Program-made: the position numbers and the translations under genes | Assembly (NCBI GenBank): GCA_947174825.1 | Contig: CAMWKN010000082.1 | Coordinates: forward strand, 1 to 6,735 | Source of the DNA: an uncultured Clostridium sp. | GTDB lineage: Bacteria; Bacillota_A; Clostridia; Lachnospirales; Lachnospiraceae | Length of the DNA: 6,735 nucleotides | Direction: 5' to 3' | Shown here: piece after piece, positions 1-5,925 of the stretch | Numbering within the stretch: the first letter of the stretch is position 1 | Layout: each line of letters opens with the position of its first letter | Notes under the pieces: model-generated | Told to the model about the DNA's origin: nothing | Seen by the model: only the letters and a program-made list of their open reading frames with translations | Databases searched by the model: none

Positions 1-308
1 CCTTTCACACCAATGTGAAGGGCTTTTATAATGTATTCGTCATCGGCAAAAGTGGTCAGTAACAGTATCTTTGCATCAGGATACTTCTCCAATAAAATGG
101 TTGCGGCATCCAGTCCCGACATGCTTTCCATCCGAATATCCATCAACAGAATATCCGGTTTCCAGTGTTCATATAGTTCCATTGCTTGCTCTCCGCAGGT
201 TCCAATTCCCAGCACTTCCACCTGTCCGCTGGCTTCCAGAATGGTCTGCAGAGACAGAGAAACCAATTTATCGTCATCAACAATACAAAGTTTTATTTTT
301 GAATTCAT
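1..308 (-). CDS. NarL/FixJ-type response regulator, receiver domain (3' end beyond window)
   Basis: Cytoplasmic transcription regulator predicted to be phosphorylated by the kinase encoded just upstream. The 102 visible residues form a receiver (REC) domain starting MNSKIKLCIVDDDKLV. The acidic pocket is D11/D12/D13, the phosphoacceptor is D57 in LLMDIRM, the conserved Thr is T85 or T86 in LLLTTFADDEYI, and the conserved Lys is K102 in IGVKG. The C-terminal DNA-binding domain lies outside the window, so a LuxR-type HTH is inferred from the HisKA_3 partner and the style of the receiver. The ATG has a good site, AAAGGAG, ending 9 nt upstream. The gene begins 16 nt after the kinase stop, so the two are co-transcribed. 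The family dimerises on inverted repeats, and the TGACAAATGTCA repeats upstream of the kinase and transporter are the obvious candidate targets (inference). Incomplete only because the window ends. Confidence 0.93.
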   Translation of the reverse strand, partial: MNSKIKLCIVDDDKLVSLSLQTILEASGQVEVLGIGTCGEQAMELYEHWKPDILLMDIRMESMSGLDAATILLEKYPDAKILLLTTFADDEYIIKALHIGVK

Positions 309-324
309 GGTGTGAAACTCCTTT

Positions 325-1446
325 CTATTTAAGAACTGAAATAAAGATCTGAAATCCCTCTTTGGTGGAGAATCGGATATTACCACCAAGGGAATGGATA
401 CGCTCCTGCATACCGATCAGACCGATTCCAGTGGGGCTGATTTCTCCGATGTCTGTTCCATTGTCCTGGATGAGCAGCTGGAATAGTGCTGGTTGTTCCC
501 GGATTTGAATGGATACCTGATCAGCGTTACTGTGTTTGGTAATGTTGTTCAATGCTTCCCGGATAATGGCGATGAATGCGTACTGGATATTCTGTGGAAG
601 AACGGTATCAACCTGGTAATTCAGCTTAATGTTTCGGTCCGGAATCGTCCGGATCATTTCTTCAATGGTATGTTTTACGTCAATGGTATCTTGATGTAGA
701 TTGTGTACACTGTTCCGGATACTGGTCATTGCTGTATTTAAGGTTTGTTGCAATTCCTGTATCGGCTGATCCAGATCAGGGTTTTGATTGATAACCTGAA
801 TTGCTCCTGTTTGTAGAATAGATCGTGTTAACATATGTCCCACATTATCGTGGATATCTCTGGCGATCCGGTTGCGTTCTGATGCCATGGCAAGGGAGAT
901 TTCATAATCCTGCTGCTGGATCAGAATGGCATTTTTTTCTTTGAGATATCGCTCTGACTGCGTGCTTTCATCCCGGTAATTATAATAGGTAAGCAACAGT
1001 GAATCAATCTGTCCGCTGTAATGCTGCATCAGACAGGCAAGGATAGAAAATAGTAATAGATAGAAGATGGTCATGGGTGGATACTGTGGGATAGATAGTA
1101 GTGCGGCAAACAGTAGGATTCCCATATTAATGAACCGTTTCGCGATATTCTGATTTGCAAACAAAATTGTTTCTGTGTTATTGCGTTGCAAGATGGCAAC
1201 GTCTGGATTTTTTGCCGCATCGTAGACAAATACCGGAAGAAACAGTGCGAATAGTGGGCAGGGGATCGTCAGAATGCTATAAACAGCTAGAAAACAGGCG
1301 GTAATCTGCCAGCGGTCAAAATAGCTGATCAGGCAGCTTATTCCCACTGTCAGACAGCAGGTAGCAATCTGTATGGCATCTGTTGGAATCCACAACAGGG
1401 AGATACAGAGCAGATATAGAATGCATTTATTTCCTAATTCTTTCAT
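325..1446 (-). CDS. HisKA_3 (DesK/LnrJ-like) sensor histidine kinase
   Basis: Membrane sensor kinase of 373 aa. Residues about 7-142 are hydrophobic, with roughly five membrane segments (near 7-22, 26-42, 48-73, 105-119, 125-141) and no sizeable extracellular domain, as in intramembrane-sensing kinases. A charged, probably coiled-coil linker (about 157-190) leads to the HisKA_3 dimerisation domain: SERNRIARDIHDNVGH with phosphoacceptor H199. The HATPase_c domain follows, with N-box REALNNITKHS (N300/N301), DNG at 328-330, and the glycine-rich GIGLIGMQERI and GGNI segments up to residue 373. All catalytic boxes look intact. The start is preceded only by a modest GAGAG site, but no better in-frame start is evident. 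It is read from the predicted promoter at 1520-1548 and is followed closely by the response regulator. A kinase of this type beside an ABC-2 exporter usually responds to a membrane-active compound handled by that exporter (family knowledge); the actual ligand is unknown. Confidence 0.95.
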   Translation of the reverse strand: MKELGNKCILYLLCISLLWIPTDAIQIATCCLTVGISCLISYFDRWQITACFLAVYSILTIPCPLFALFLPVFVYDAAKNPDVAILQRNNTETILFANQNIAKRFINMGILLFAALLSIPQYPPMTIFYLLLFSILACLMQHYSGQIDSLLLTYYNYRDESTQSERYLKEKNAILIQQQDYEISLAMASERNRIARDIHDNVGHMLTRSILQTGAIQVINQNPDLDQPIQELQQTLNTAMTSIRNSVHNLHQDTIDVKHTIEEMIRTIPDRNIKLNYQVDTVLPQNIQYAFIAIIREALNNITKHSNADQVSIQIREQPALFQLLIQDNGTDIGEISPTGIGLIGMQERIHSLGGNIRFSTKEGFQIFISVLK

Positions 1447-1519: not shown

Positions 1520-1548
1520 AGTATAAGTCATGCTTCCTTAATTGGCAA
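1520..1548 (-). promoter_or_regulatory. Predicted sigma-A promoter of the kinase/regulator operon
   Basis: On the minus strand, TTGCCA (complement of 1543-1548) and TATACT (complement of 1520-1525) are separated by exactly 17 nt. Transcription should start near 1513, leaving a leader of about 67 nt before the kinase ATG at 1446. The near-palindrome at 1569-1580 would be centred about 61 bp upstream of this start, a typical activator distance. The start site is inferred, not measured. Confidence 0.7.
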
Positions 1549-1568: not shown

Positions 1569-1580
1569 TGACAAATGTCA
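1569..1580. promoter_or_regulatory. Operator candidate, copy 1: TGACAAATGTCA
   Basis: Inverted repeat TGACA-AA-TGTCA in the divergent control region. The same 12 bases, flanked by G and T on the same sides, recur upstream of the ABC transporter at 2446-2457, and an 11/12 copy lies at 1602-1613. It sits upstream of both the kinase promoter (about -61) and the plus-strand TATAAT at 1638 (about -75). A dimeric NarL/FixJ-type regulator bound here could act on both operons. The repeat is seen directly; the binding protein is inferred. Confidence 0.7.
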
Positions 1581-1601
1581 TTATCCTTTTTTAGATTCTA
1601 A

Positions 1602-1613
1602 TGACAAATGACA
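1602..1613. promoter_or_regulatory. Operator candidate, copy 2: TGACAAATGACA
   Basis: Differs from copy 1 at a single base, which breaks the right half-site, and has the same flanking T afterwards. Its centre is 33 bp from copy 1, close to three helical turns, so both copies could lie on the same DNA face. It would be centred about -42 from the predicted plus-strand start near 1650, next to a -35 region that has no recognisable consensus. This suits a weaker second site used for activation of the small membrane-protein genes (inference). Confidence 0.55.
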
Positions 1614-1614
1614 T

Positions 1615-1643
1615 ACTCCAATAACTGGTAGATTTTGTATAAT
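1615..1643 (+). promoter_or_regulatory. Predicted promoter of the small membrane-protein genes
   Basis: A perfect -10 TATAAT lies at 1638-1643. The matching -35 position (ACTCCA at 1615-1620 with a 17-nt spacer) does not resemble TTGACA, so the promoter probably depends on an activator. The predicted start near 1650 gives a leader of about 41 nt before the ATG at 1692. The operator-like copies at 1569-1580 and 1602-1613 are directly upstream. Confidence 0.6.
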
Positions 1644-1691
1644 AGTTTTATGAATTGATGGAGAGATCTCGCGGAGGGGGAGGTAGAGGGA

Positions 1692-1886
1692 ATGATCAGA
1701 AAAATAGCAAGAGCTATGGGTCTTTTTATGTTATTTGTAGCAGTAATATTTATCATAGTGGCATGTAATAATCCACAAATGAGTTTTCCTTGGAGTAATA
1801 CGATCACATATATGCTCTATATTGTTTGGCTTGCCATTATGATATTATTTATCGTTGCTCCTTTTGGAACAAAGAATAAAAAATGA
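1692..1886 (+). CDS. Small unrecognised membrane protein (64 aa)
   Basis: I do not recognise a family. The protein has two hydrophobic segments: residues about 9-25 after a basic N-terminus (MIRKIARAMG), and about 37-58 (TITYMLYIVWLAIMILFIVA), ending in a basic GTKNKK tail. The end of the first segment, IIVAC-NN with Cys25, fits a loose lipobox, so the protein could be a lipoprotein with a second anchor, or simply a two-helix membrane protein. The gene is credible: a very purine-rich ribosome binding region (GGAGG repeated in 1673-1684) lies 7 nt before the ATG, a TATAAT box lies about 50 nt upstream, and the next gene starts 19 nt after its stop. It is AT-rich (roughly one third GC by hand count). 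The shared operator repeats suggest control together with the ABC transporter. Confidence 0.72.
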   Translation: MIRKIARAMGLFMLFVAVIFIIVACNNPQMSFPWSNTITYMLYIVWLAIMILFIVAPFGTKNKK

Positions 1887-1905
1887 CAGGAAAGAGAGGG
1901 TATTT

Positions 1906-2400
1906 ATGAAAGATTCAAAAATTTTAGCATTTGCTTTCGGAGTGATTTCTATGACGCTGCTTCACTATTTCTACTGGGGGTGGTTGGCGGATGAGTTAAT
2001 GAATGGAACTAGTGTTGGTCTATACACATTTATGTTTCTTCCAGGATTTTTGACTCTTGTTTATTGTGTTTTTGAAAAGTTTGTGTTGTATACTTATGTT
2101 TGTCCGGATGGGAAATTTCTTGATATAATACCATCAACTGTTGTATGGGTAGTGGAATGTTTGATTGGAGCGTTCTCTTCCGCACAAACAATAAACAATC
2201 AATGGCATGATCCCGAATTTGGACCAGGATTGGAAACAGGCATGTGTGGGTTTTGCGGTTTGGAAATGATTATTTCTATTGTGTATTTTCATTTATTATT
2301 TTATGTGAAAAATAAGACGTTGAAAAAAGTTTTGCTTGTAATGTTGGCATTATTTCTGCTACAGGTCGCTATAAGTGCTGTGATGAACTATGGTTACTAA
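1906..2400 (+). CDS. Unrecognised polytopic membrane protein (164 aa)
   Basis: I do not recognise a family. Four or five membrane helices are predicted by eye: about 5-24, 37-60, 73-92, 113-134 and 138-160. The loop between the third and fourth (about 93-112, AQTINNQWHDPEFGPGLETG) is polar and rich in Pro and Gly, and a CGFC pair follows at 114-117. The start at 1906 was chosen over the in-frame ATG at 1855 because AGAGAGGG lies 5 nt upstream of 1906, while 1855 is inside the previous gene and has no site. The gap from the previous stop is 19 nt, so the two genes should share a transcript. GC over 1921-2400 is 175/480 (36%), against 130/300 (43%) in a stretch of the first permease (4201-4500), hinting at a separate origin. 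Its place between the sensor operon and the exporter, under the same candidate operator, suggests an accessory membrane role (inference). Confidence 0.82.
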   Translation: MKDSKILAFAFGVISMTLLHYFYWGWLADELMNGTSVGLYTFMFLPGFLTLVYCVFEKFVLYTYVCPDGKFLDIIPSTVVWVVECLIGAFSSAQTINNQWHDPEFGPGLETGMCGFCGLEMIISIVYFHLLFYVKNKTLKKVLLVMLALFLLQVAISAVMNYGY

Positions 2401-2405
2401 AATAG

Positions 2406-2426
2406 CGATTTTCCATGGCAAAATCG
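2406..2426. repeat. Hairpin just after the 164-aa gene
   Basis: CGATTTT (2406-2412) and AAAATCG (2420-2426) form a perfect 7-bp stem around a 7-nt loop, starting 6 nt after the stop codon. No T-run follows, so it is at best a weak terminator or an mRNA 3'-end stabiliser. If it leaks, transcripts from the small-gene promoter would also enter the transporter operon. Confidence 0.45.
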
Positions 2427-2443
2427 TTGACAGATAGAGTCAA
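2427..2443. promoter_or_regulatory. Additional inverted repeat TTGAC-N7-GTCAA
   Basis: A 5-bp inverted repeat (2427-2431 and 2439-2443) immediately upstream of operator copy 3. Its GACA and GTCA elements resemble the halves of the main near-palindrome but with wider spacing. It could be an auxiliary regulator contact site, or chance in a short AT-rich stretch. Confidence 0.3.
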
Positions 2444-2445
2444 TG

Positions 2446-2457
2446 TGACAAATGTCA
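2446..2457. promoter_or_regulatory. Operator candidate, copy 3: TGACAAATGTCA
   Basis: Identical over 14 bases (2445-2458, GTGACAAATGTCAT) to copy 1 in the kinase/small-gene divergent region. It lies upstream of the ABC transporter, centred about -64 from the predicted start near 2516, which mirrors the about -61 placement relative to the kinase promoter. A further TGTCA overlaps the right edge (2458-2462). This is the best sequence evidence that sensor operon and transporter belong to one regulon. Confidence 0.72.
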
Positions 2458-2500
2458 TGTCAAAATAGGACAATTCTCTATATTTTCTAAATAAGATCTA

Positions 2501-2509
2501 TGCTACACT
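2501..2509 (+). promoter_or_regulatory. Predicted extended -10 promoter of the ABC transporter operon
   Basis: TGC-TACACT (TG at 2501-2502, hexamer 2504-2509) fits an extended -10 element. The expected -35 position (TATTTT at 2481-2486) is non-consensus, consistent with a promoter that needs an activator bound at 2446-2457. A start near 2516 would leave a leader of about 90 nt before the ATPase ATG at 2607. Confidence 0.45.
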
Positions 2510-2606: not shown

Positions 2607-3545
2607 ATGGGAACTGTTATTCAAGTACATAATCTGGTAAAACGTTATCAGGATCTGGTAGCATTGGATCATTTTAATCTCAGTGTGGAAGAGGGAGAGA
2701 TTTTTGGTCTGCTTGGGCCCAATGGATCTGGCAAAACGACCACCATTAATTGTATTCTCTCTCTTTTAAAGTATGATAAGGGAAGCATACAGGTGTTTGG
2801 AAAGGACATGAAACCGGATTCCTATGACAGTAAGCGTGATATCGGTGTGGTTATGCAGGATATTGCTGTTTTTGATGAACTGACCACCTATGAAAATATT
2901 GATTATTTCTGTGGTCTTTATGTCAAGGATAAGGAAAAGCGCAGACAATATGTGGAAGAAGCCATAACATTTGTGGGATTGGAAGACTATCGGAAATTTT
3001 TTCCCAAAAAGCTGTCCGGAGGTCTGCGCAGAAGACTAAACATTGCTTGTGGTATTGCCCATAAGCCGAAACTGATTTTCTTTGATGAGCCAACTGTGGC
3101 AGTAGATCCCCAGAGCCGGAACCGGATTCTGGAAGGCATTGTGGAGCTGCAGAAACAGGGGGCAACCATTGTCTATACTTCCCATTATATGGAGGAGGTA
3201 GAGCAGATTTGTACCCGTATCGCCATTATGGACGGCGGAAAGAACTTGGCGCTGGGTACCAAGGAAGAATTAAAAAAGATGATTAAAAATACAGAGACAG
3301 TTACCGTGGAACAGATTGAGTTATCAGAGGAAGGTCTACAAAAGTTGCAACAGTTGTCTCATGTCTATCAGACGGATTATGAAAATCATACCTTAAAACT
3401 GTTTTTTAGTGGAGGGTCCAAAAACCTGATTCATGTGCTTCAGGAAATAGATGGGCAGAATTTGAATTATGGACGGGTTTATACGGAACTACCGACTTTG
3501 AATGATGTCTTTCTGGAAATTACTGGAAAGGGACTACGTGACTAA
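2607..3545 (+). CDS. ABC-2 exporter ATPase (DrrA/LnrL-like)
   Basis: Cytoplasmic ATP-hydrolysing subunit of the exporter formed with the next two gene products. From this start (312 aa): Walker A GPNGSGKT at 37-44 (K43), Q-loop Q84 in VVMQDIAVFDELTTYENI, signature LSGGLRRRL from 136, Walker B LIFFDEP with D160 and E161, D-loop VAVDPQSR at 164-171, and switch H193 in YTSHYMEE. Residues after about 225 form the C-terminal extension ending PTLNDVFLEITGKGLRD, typical of the CcmA/DrrA/NatA group. The start at 2607 was chosen because GGAG lies 6 nt upstream (2597-2600) and the ABC domain begins directly after it. In-frame ATGs at 2544 and 2595 lack a site and would add an atypical basic leader. The substrate is not evident; partner genes and kinase suggest a membrane-active drug or lipopeptide/polyene-type compound (inference). 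Confidence 0.95.
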   Translation: MGTVIQVHNLVKRYQDLVALDHFNLSVEEGEIFGLLGPNGSGKTTTINCILSLLKYDKGSIQVFGKDMKPDSYDSKRDIGVVMQDIAVFDELTTYENIDYFCGLYVKDKEKRRQYVEEAITFVGLEDYRKFFPKKLSGGLRRRLNIACGIAHKPKLIFFDEPTVAVDPQSRNRILEGIVELQKQGATIVYTSHYMEEVEQICTRIAIMDGGKNLALGTKEELKKMIKNTETVTVEQIELSEEGLQKLQQLSHVYQTDYENHTLKLFFSGGSKNLIHVLQEIDGQNLNYGRVYTELPTLNDVFLEITGKGLRD

Positions 3546-3653: not shown

Positions 3654-4787
3654 ATGTTTTTTCATATTTTACGTTATGGTCTAAGATCACTGCTGCGGGA
3701 TAAAGTGTTTTTATTCTGGAGTCTGAGTTTTTCTTTTCTTCTGGCTACTTTTATGTATATGGCATTTGGCAATATTTTTGAGACGACGGAGAAGTTTGAT
3801 CCCATTGCCGTGGCCGTGGTAGAGGAGCGGAAAAATGAGGTATTAGAAGAAGTGTTGGCGTCTTTGTCTGAGGAGGGAGAGGATCAGATCCTGAAAATAA
3901 CTCAGGCAGATGACAAAAAGGCGAAGAAATTATTGGAGGAGGAAAAGGTAACGGCTATTCTCTATGAAAATGTCAATGCCCATTTGGTGGTACGGGAGAA
4001 TGGTATGAAAGAAAGTATCTTGCAGATGCTGATGAGCCGGATTAAGCAGACGACTGTGGCGATGACAGAGGTCTCTTTGAAACATCCGGAAAATATACAG
4101 CAGGCGGTTGCGGGAATGGAGCAGGAGGTTTCGTACTGTGTGCAAAAGAATTATGGTTCCGGTAATCAGGATAATGTGGTTAATTATTTCTATGCCATTT
4201 TTGCCATGACCTGCCTGTTTGCCTCTTTTTCTTCCTATAGCAGAACCTCCACCCTGCAGGCAAACTTCTGTGCATTGGGGATTAGACGGGGGGTTACACC
4301 AACACCGAAGATGGTTATATTGCTGGTGGAATTTCTGATGAGTGAGACCATGCAGTTTCTGGTGACGTGTCTGCTCTATGTCTATTTGCGCTTTGTTCTT
4401 GGAATTCAGATTGGTGATGATTATCTTGCAATTGGAATTTTGTTACTATTAGGAACCAGTTTGGGAACTATGTTTGGTATTTTTATAGGAGCATTGCCGA
4501 AACTCAGTGATGGCACACGGGTAGGAATTTTAGTTTCTGTCTCTTTGATTCTGTGTGCCTGCAGTGACTTGATGGCAAGTGGAGTGAGGGATTTGCTGGA
4601 ACACAAGGCACCGTTAGTGAATGATCTAAACCCTGCCGCTTTGATTTGTGATTCCTTTTATGCATTAAATGTGTATGACGGTTATGGGCGATTTACGTCC
4701 AATATGTTGATCTTAGCTATGCATATCGTAGTGTTGGCAGTGATTAGTTTTTTCATGGTCAGGAGGAGTCAGTATGCAAGTCTATAA
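3654..4787 (+). CDS. ABC-2 type exporter permease, first subunit
   Basis: Membrane subunit of 377 aa with the ABC2_membrane_3 layout: TM1 at about 17-38, a large extracytoplasmic domain (about 39-175, rich in Glu/Lys), then five helices at about 176-196, 219-247, 256-281, 288-310 and 349-369. The KxxFLFWSLSFSFLLATFMYMAFGN start and the ALPKLSDGTRVGILVS region fit the LnrM/LnrN and DrrB-like permeases. The start at 3654 was chosen because AAGGAGG (3641-3647) lies 6 nt upstream; the longer in-frame ATG at 3594 falls inside a palindrome without a site. It lies 108 nt downstream of the ATPase, an unusually wide gap filled by the two palindromes, and overlaps the next permease gene by 14 nt. Together with that protein it should form the heterodimeric pore. 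Confidence 0.92.
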   Translation: MFFHILRYGLRSLLRDKVFLFWSLSFSFLLATFMYMAFGNIFETTEKFDPIAVAVVEERKNEVLEEVLASLSEEGEDQILKITQADDKKAKKLLEEEKVTAILYENVNAHLVVRENGMKESILQMLMSRIKQTTVAMTEVSLKHPENIQQAVAGMEQEVSYCVQKNYGSGNQDNVVNYFYAIFAMTCLFASFSSYSRTSTLQANFCALGIRRGVTPTPKMVILLVEFLMSETMQFLVTCLLYVYLRFVLGIQIGDDYLAIGILLLLGTSLGTMFGIFIGALPKLSDGTRVGILVSVSLILCACSDLMASGVRDLLEHKAPLVNDLNPAALICDSFYALNVYDGYGRFTSNMLILAMHIVVLAVISFFMVRRSQYASL

Positions 4788-5925
4788 ATGTTTTATGAAA
4801 ATCTTAAAGAAAAATGCCAGATTCATTGCAATGTATATGGGAATCTTTATTGTGCTGTGTGTGTTGACTTCATCTCAGGGGAAAGAATCGGAGGAGGTCA
4901 AGTTTGAAGCCAGTCAATATCAATTGGCTGTGTTTGATCAGGATCAGTCAGAGCTTAGCCGGGGACTGACCGATTATTTATCAAAACAGAATACTTTGGT
5001 CAATCTAAAGGATGAGGCAGAGGTTATCCAGGATGAAATCTATAACCGTAACATTCATTGTGTTTTGCGGATTCAGGATGGATTTGGTCAGGCGGCAGCC
5101 CAGGGGGAAGGATCTGGAATGATTGAAATAACTGCTGTGCCGGGAACGGTATACGGGGAGGCATTTACCCAGACGATCAATGGCTATATGAGTGTTTTAG
5201 GTACCTATCTCCGGGGAGGTTTTACAGTAAACGAAGCATTGGAACGGACGAAGCAGGCGATGGAGCTGCAGACATCCGTTTCTCTGGCAGATGGCGAGAG
5301 TGATGGCAGCTATTCCAAGATCTATTATTTTTTTAAGTATCTGGCATATATCTATGTGGTAATCTGTATTGAAACCTTAGGAATGGTGATGATATCATTC
5401 CGCAAAAAAGGGGTCAGAGATCGGATTGTCAGTTCACCGTATCCAGTTACCAGAAGTGGTTTGGAACAATATGCTGGAATGATTACCATGGGAGCGATTC
5501 TGGTTTTGATTCATGTGATCTTGTTGCTGGTCATGGGGCTTCCGCTCTTTTCGTTCCAGGGGATGCTGTTCTTGCTTAATGAATTGTGTTATCTGGTAGT
5601 TTGCATGGGAATTGTCTTTTTCATTGGTCAGGTGGTTAGTAATACACAGCTTTTGTCTATGATTGCCAATGTAGTAGGATTGGGAGGCAGCTTTCTGGGA
5701 GGTGTTTTTGTACCATTGGAATTGATGGGAGAGAGGATTGTTGCTCTGGCACATATCCTGCCATCTTATTGGTATGTCAGAGCATGTCAGCAGATTGATT
5801 TTCTGGGACAGGGGGATTCTCTGACAGCAGTATTTATCAGTATGGGAGTGGAGATTCTCTTTGGGGTAGCGTTAATCTGTATCGGGCTGGCATATTCCAA
5901 GGCTGCTGCAACAGGCAGACGCTAA
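4774..5925 (+). CDS. ABC-2 type exporter permease, second subunit
   Basis: Membrane subunit of 383 aa, same layout as its neighbour. TM1 is at about 17-33 and an extracytoplasmic domain at about 34-183 (VAVFDQDQSELSRGLTDYL is typical of the start of this domain in ABC-2 permeases). Five helices follow at about 184-208, 234-256, 262-287, 293-316 and 350-374. The late motif GGSFLGGVFVPLELMGE...AHILPSYWY (about 304-334) is characteristic of the ABC2_membrane_3 family. The start at 4774 has AGGAGGAG 5 nt upstream, inside the end of the first permease gene; the 14-nt overlap implies translational coupling and equal amounts of both subunits. Last gene of the transporter operon. The substrate cannot be read from the sequence. 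Confidence 0.93.
   Translation: MQVYKCFMKILKKNARFIAMYMGIFIVLCVLTSSQGKESEEVKFEASQYQLAVFDQDQSELSRGLTDYLSKQNTLVNLKDEAEVIQDEIYNRNIHCVLRIQDGFGQAAAQGEGSGMIEITAVPGTVYGEAFTQTINGYMSVLGTYLRGGFTVNEALERTKQAMELQTSVSLADGESDGSYSKIYYFFKYLAYIYVVICIETLGMVMISFRKKGVRDRIVSSPYPVTRSGLEQYAGMITMGAILVLIHVILLLVMGLPLFSFQGMLFLLNELCYLVVCMGIVFFIGQVVSNTQLLSMIANVVGLGGSFLGGVFVPLELMGERIVALAHILPSYWYVRACQQIDFLGQGDSLTAVFISMGVEILFGVALICIGLAYSKAAATGRR

Follow-up and report, generated by a model that had tools for sequence, protein, structure and literature searches.

A candidate DesR-type operator at an ABC exporter beside a DesKR-like two-component system in Lachnospiraceae

One 12-bp near-palindrome, TGACAAATGTCA, recurs between the genes of the window, the whole stretch of 6,735 nucleotides from an uncultured Clostridium sp. 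of the Lachnospiraceae that was analysed here. The window holds a two-component system, two small genes and an ABC exporter, and the earlier note on this DNA proposed that a single regulator acts through the word on the sensor operon, the small genes and the exporter, with the adjacent response regulator, of the DesR kind, as the leading candidate. The questions are what the word is, which protein would bind it and which promoters it would serve. We put the probability at about 0.9 that it is a DesR-type operator which the adjacent DesKR-like response regulator would bind, switching on the exporter, the small genes and probably its own operon.

The word and its neighbours in the window

A scan of the window found two exact copies of TGACAAATGTCA, and the identity between them extends to 14 bases (GTGACAAATGTCAT, at 1568-1581 and 2445-2458). 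A third copy, TGACAAATGACA, matches at 11 of 12 positions. All three are as the earlier note had described them, and all lie between predicted genes: the copies at 1569-1580 and 1602-1613 between the start of the kinase gene (1446, minus strand) and the first small open reading frame (1692), and the copy at 2446-2457 between the end of the second small open reading frame (2400) and the start of the ATPase gene (2607). The same note had seen no copy inside the genes, which holds at up to one mismatch; at two mismatches there is a single further place in the window, 3760-3771, and it falls within a permease gene. Counting both strands, the word matches six times in the window against a shuffle mean of 1.10, and 0 of 200 shuffles reached six.

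Table 1. Features of the window, with positions counted from its first letter. A dot in the strand column marks the near-palindromic boxes.
Feature	Positions	Strand	Remarks
Response regulator, receiver domain	3..308	-	Gene runs off the window before the output domain
Sensor histidine kinase	325..1446	-	HisKA_3 (57.4 bits); closest solved relative DesK
Possible kinase-operon promoter	1520..1548	-	TTGCCA-17-TATACT; the scan gave no excess over shuffles
Candidate operator box	1569..1580	.	Exact TGACAAATGTCA (14-mer GTGACAAATGTCAT, 1568-1581); counterpart kept in relatives
Candidate second box	1602..1613	.	TGACAAATGACA, one mismatch; 33 bp (about three turns) from the first box
Proposed -10 of the small-gene promoter	1638..1643	+	TATAAT; starts 24 nt past the end of the 1602-1613 box
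Small protein	1692..1886	+	Hydrophobic by eye; weak DUF3784 match below the curated cut-off
Small protein 2	1906..2400	+	Hydrophobic by eye; rare
Candidate operator box of the exporter promoter	2446..2457	.	Exact TGACAAATGTCA
Degenerate partner box	2468..2479	+	GGACAATTCTCT; 22 bp from 2446; weak match, of which only the position fits relatives well
Proposed extended -10 of the exporter promoter	2501..2509	+	TGcTACACT; hexamer 2504-2509 starts 24 nt past 2479
ABC exporter ATPase (DrrA-like)	2607..3545	+	
ABC-2 permease	3654..4787	+	
ABC-2 permease	4774..5925	+	

The sensor kinase was compared with solved structures and matched DesK best (E 2.5e-15). A GerE domain was found in both of the two orthologues of the response regulator that were scanned, and an orthologue compared with solved structures matched VraR best and DesR next. 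Judging from these relatives, the window's regulator is probably of the NarL/FixJ type, with its output domain beyond the window end. The two-component system is adjoined by one ATPase and two ABC-2 permeases; the window holds no desaturase, and the exporter stands in its place.

The two small genes are harder to place. A protein database search for small protein 2 returned six proteins including itself, i.e. five relatives, and one of these (P0124) used as a query gave two marginal matches in 397 genomes. Small protein 2 also had no match in 14 relatives' genomes, an empty result that by itself says nothing about absence. Neither small gene had a match at E 1e-3 among the best-scoring 80 relatives' loci described below. 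The window had no match in Rfam at gathering thresholds and no near match among plasmids by megablast. Among viral contigs, 24 stretches matched a pattern and none of them is a relative; the ATPase had 1003 matches in phage records, of which the best one was followed.

The promoters that the earlier note had predicted beside the copies fared unevenly. A simple consensus scan found 19 promoters in the window against a shuffle mean of 19.5, no excess, while the -10 hexamers at 1638 and 2504 stand at the spacing that is commonest in relatives. With the 1602 box 24 nt before TATAAT, promoter geometry suggests that the small genes have an exporter-type promoter, and it is this geometry which points to their control. 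The strong box at 1569 stands 33 bp from the 1602 box in that promoter, not the 22-23 bp of relatives. Of the window's two second boxes, the one at 22 bp (2468) is weak and the one at 33 bp (1602) good. In two relatives (L019 and L037) a similar pair stands 35 bp apart; in L019 each box has one mismatch. The 1569 box also lies 43 nt upstream of the -10 of the possible kinase-operon promoter, and the case for control of the kinase operon is less sharp than that for the exporter.

Conservation and anatomy at relatives' exporters

Relatives were collected by searching a one-genome-per-species collection with a kinase profile of 32 sequences and taking the best-scoring 80 loci, whose titles name Lachnospiraceae, Blautia, Roseburia, Acetobacterium, Clostridium, Oscillospiraceae and others. 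The 74 loci counted here are those of the 80 with an ATPase orthologue at an identity of at least 55%; the six without one (L026, L042, L045, L047, L063 and L076) were excluded. Comparison of orthologous upstream regions, a check suggested together with the original observation, found the site kept at the exporter: 74/74 loci of the best-scoring 80 have it, at up to two mismatches, no more than 350 bp upstream of the ATPase, exact in 59, with one mismatch in 14 and with two in 1. At up to one mismatch it turns up in 0.7% of Markov-simulated regions; among 59 scrambled palindromes made from its letters, the most successful scores in 3/74 loci. Identities between the relatives' proteins and the window's span about 25-78%, so the resemblance is unlikely to reflect mere common descent of the intergenic DNA.

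The exporter, rather than the kinase, is what the site follows. Kinase and exporter are divergent in 71 of the 74 loci, and the gap between them usually holds one element. The order differs in four loci: the exporter lies ahead of the kinase on the same strand in L007 and L044, comes after the regulator in L010, and in L011 is divergent at a distance of about 1.1 kb. All four have the site upstream of the ATPase, exact in L044 and with one mismatch in the others. Upstream of the kinase, L007 has a site with two mismatches at -276, and L010, L011 and L044 have none within 900 bp. As for the six loci without the ATPase, L042 has a one-mismatch site upstream of the kinase and the other five have none within 900 bp, some of them being cut by contig ends.

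Read toward the exporter, the relatives' regions run TGACATTTGTCA, then ten or eleven bases, a weaker box TGAc...CACT and a -10-like hexamer. The middle two bases of the word are TT in 54 of the 74 loci, AA in 18, AT in 1 and TA in 1, and the CACT of the partner box stands at offset +20/21 in 66/74. Past the second box the -10-like hexamer is most often 24 nt away, with 41 matches, or 25 nt, with 15. Kinase-side distances are spread, with 21 matches at 23-26 nt and 28 at 36-44 nt among others.

The arrangement suggests how the operator might work. The 12-mer would be the strong half of a DesR-type operator, bound by a dimer of the phosphorylated adjacent response regulator, and a second dimer would bind the weaker box about 22 bp further on, or 33 bp on at the window's small genes. 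A proximal box that ends 24 nt ahead of the -10 would be centred near -42, and the distal box near -64 (or -75). By this geometry, centres near -42 and -64 would be where a class II activator sits, and an activator placed there could replace a -35 contact. The binding, the dimers, the dependence on phosphorylation and the activation, rather than repression, are what we infer from the arrangement.

The copy at 1569 has another possible use. On the plus strand, 1560-1595 sets the box in a 13-bp stem followed by six T, with -18.8 kcal/mol and z -4.6, and 0 of 200 shuffles were as stable, so this copy could be a rho-independent terminator instead of an operator. We regard that as very unlikely, given what surrounds the word elsewhere. 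At any one of the seven positions that flank the 12-mer, complementarity is found in only 18-31 of the 74 relatives, a five-T run follows the box in 1/74 of them in the exporter orientation and in 14/74 in the other, and the window's own 2446 copy has no T run. Operator and terminator functions could also overlap at 1569.

Co-occurrence with the regulator and spread through the phylum

In 12 relatives' genomes the exact word (with either W pair in the middle) has 34 sites, 1-7 per genome, against 7 for the reversed control, 0-3 per genome, which runs against many copies unrelated to promoters, the finding that the earlier note had said would speak against a regulatory role. At these frequencies a single copy elsewhere can be chance. 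That the word as a whole is a chance repeat without function is extremely unlikely, in view of its conservation in 74/74 loci of the best-scoring 80, its position and its partner box. Inspection of 23 of the 34 sites found the partner box at 8 kinase/exporter loci and in one further place, in Acetobacterium (L082); the other 14 lack it. The Acetobacterium place, at 1475-1512, is a complete two-box operator with no open reading frame of at least 100 aa within about 380 bp, possibly a relic or one that serves a small RNA or small open reading frame.

The two-box pattern was then sought in 397 genomes of one family. It occurs in 93 of them, at 97 sites, against 4 matches for the reversed control, and 29 of 30 inspected sites flank this ATPase. 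The response regulator (E at most 1e-45) was found in 125 of the same 397 genomes: in 85/93 with the pattern vs 40/304 without it, an odds ratio of 70 with a Fisher p of 1.6e-45 that ignores relatedness. Pattern and regulator share a contig within 8 kb in 80 of the 85 genomes that have both. These sites, their spacing, their conservation and their co-occurrence with the regulator are direct observations.

The 40 exception genomes, with the regulator and no pattern, partly overlap the 80 loci (e.g. G047 and L019), so the two counts are not independent. The ATPase (at least 50% identity) is present in 28 of them, and in 27 of these a copy lies no more than 400 bp upstream of it at up to two mismatches (exact in 11, one mismatch in 15, two in 1); the ATPase locus L232 has no site. 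Of the 12 exceptions without a close ATPase, 3 have a copy at up to one mismatch. The site accompanies the exporter, and a regulator without this exporter is usually without the site.

The same survey bears on whether a different regulator serving these promoters, such as a one-component repressor, owns the site. Sequence alone cannot name a binder, inverted repeats of this size suit many families, and 8 of the 93 pattern-positive genomes have no response regulator at E 1e-45. We consider another owner improbable: the response regulator, the one regulator gene surveyed systematically, is repeatedly found beside the site, and the word equals the published site of its homologue DesR.

Across 299 genomes of the phylum the pattern is found in 19, with 0 matches for the control. 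Half of the 20 sites (10) flank kinase, regulator and ATPase, with two genomes that were also in the family scan; 1 flanks a more distant set, 4 flank a more distant ATPase (45-46%) with a regulator relative on the same contig within 8 kb, and 5 flank none of kinase, regulator or ATPase.

One of these five, at 1501-1537 of L136, comes from a genome of 7.3 Mb; there the operator sits where a fatty-acid desaturase gene begins and is covered by a mechanical open reading frame, and a regulator relative 38% identical to the query lies less than 3 kb away. The desaturase gene des is the DesR target according to PMC7726353. Of 60 genomes from the order of L136, another order of the phylum, 51 have a desaturase-family match. 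Among 30 of these desaturase-family loci that were inspected, some of which may not be des orthologues, 16 have an upstream site at up to one mismatch, 11 of them exact, a count taken with no chance control. Most of the 16 have a second TGA...TGACT box 22-24 bp on. The other inspected loci have a site with two mismatches (1), with three (2) or nothing within three (11).

Two further observations concern other contigs. One small genome (G697) has two two-box operators: that of L155 precedes an ABC ATPase, and that of L148 has unrelated genes on either side. An exact operator with a CACT partner stands at 3899-3910 of L135, together with a related kinase, regulator and exporter, on a Listeria-labelled contig of a wastewater phage collection that looks like a bacterial chromosome.

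Known systems and what the operator would mean

Among the closest known systems are those of DesR and pneumococcal RR11. The B. subtilis DesR motif is ATGACA-N2-TGTCAT in PMC11034029, and GTGACAAATGTCAT fits it at 11 of 12 specified positions. The same paper gives ATGACATTTGTCAT-N7-AGTGACA as the candidate RR11 motif, calls it highly similar to the DesR motif, and reports that RR11 overexpression induces its own TCS11-ABC operon, with biochemical assays said to be still needed. Because word and spacing are the same as in these two motifs, the locus reads as a DesKR-like system next to an ABC exporter, with an operator of the DesR type, and the neighbouring response regulator very probably docks at the word.

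There are differences as well. DesK/DesR, a system that responds to membrane fluidity or cold, shares the published site word, and DesK is the window kinase's best solved match, but its target is a desaturase, whereas the target here would be an ABC exporter with two small genes. TCS11 shares the word and the 22-bp register of the second box, but its two-component system and transporter form one operon, whereas kinase and exporter are divergent here. According to PMC7726353, the promoters of ABC genes next to homologues of DesKR are similar to the des promoter, and those of YvfT/YvfU and homologues in Bacillus, Staphylococcus and Streptococcus share its inverted and direct repeat. PMC2588459 also places ABC genes upstream of yvfTU. 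The YvfT/YvfU systems have one ATPase and one permease gene, whereas the window has one ATPase and two permeases.

The LnrLMN exporter of B. subtilis is made of one ATPase and two permeases, and LnrJK-LnrLMN, a system induced by linear polyenes and protective against them, is like the window in having a two-component system beside such a set. PMC4672918 describes LnrJK-LnrLMN (YfiJKLMN) as a two-component system beside a three-gene exporter and hypothesises one operon. Term searches of two papers showed no operator for LnrJK-LnrLMN. A literature search for the word and its written variants returned, among the texts it covered, only PMC3465305, PMC11034029 and a fly-eye paper. The first is an E. 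coli paper in which the word is a PhoB site.

Both parts of the original proposal gain support. One regulator for all three targets is consistent with conservation at the exporter in 74/74 loci of the best-scoring 80, with a less sharp signal at the kinase operon and with promoter geometry at the small genes. A regulator of the DesR kind encoded next door remains the leading candidate, with a word that agrees with the published DesR site and a regulator that co-occurs with it (85/93 vs 40/304). The operator type was already known; what is added is that this exporter family of Lachnospiraceae and related bacteria carries it, together with the -10 rule and the breadth.

In relatives the region is usually one shared divergent promoter region, and in the window the two small genes sit inside it with boxes on both sides. 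We tentatively suggest, at a little under even odds, that an ancestral shared divergent operator was duplicated on the arrival of the two lineage-specific small genes in the gap. This would have given the regulator a third promoter, with its boxes three turns apart, and the small proteins would be new accessory parts of the exporter or sensor.

The finding would connect a well-studied family of membrane-sensing regulators with an exporter family that gut Lachnospiraceae share with their relatives. An operator this precise, with two boxes and a fixed distance to the -10, would let targets be predicted genome by genome, and reporters could be designed around it to learn what these exporters sense and remove.
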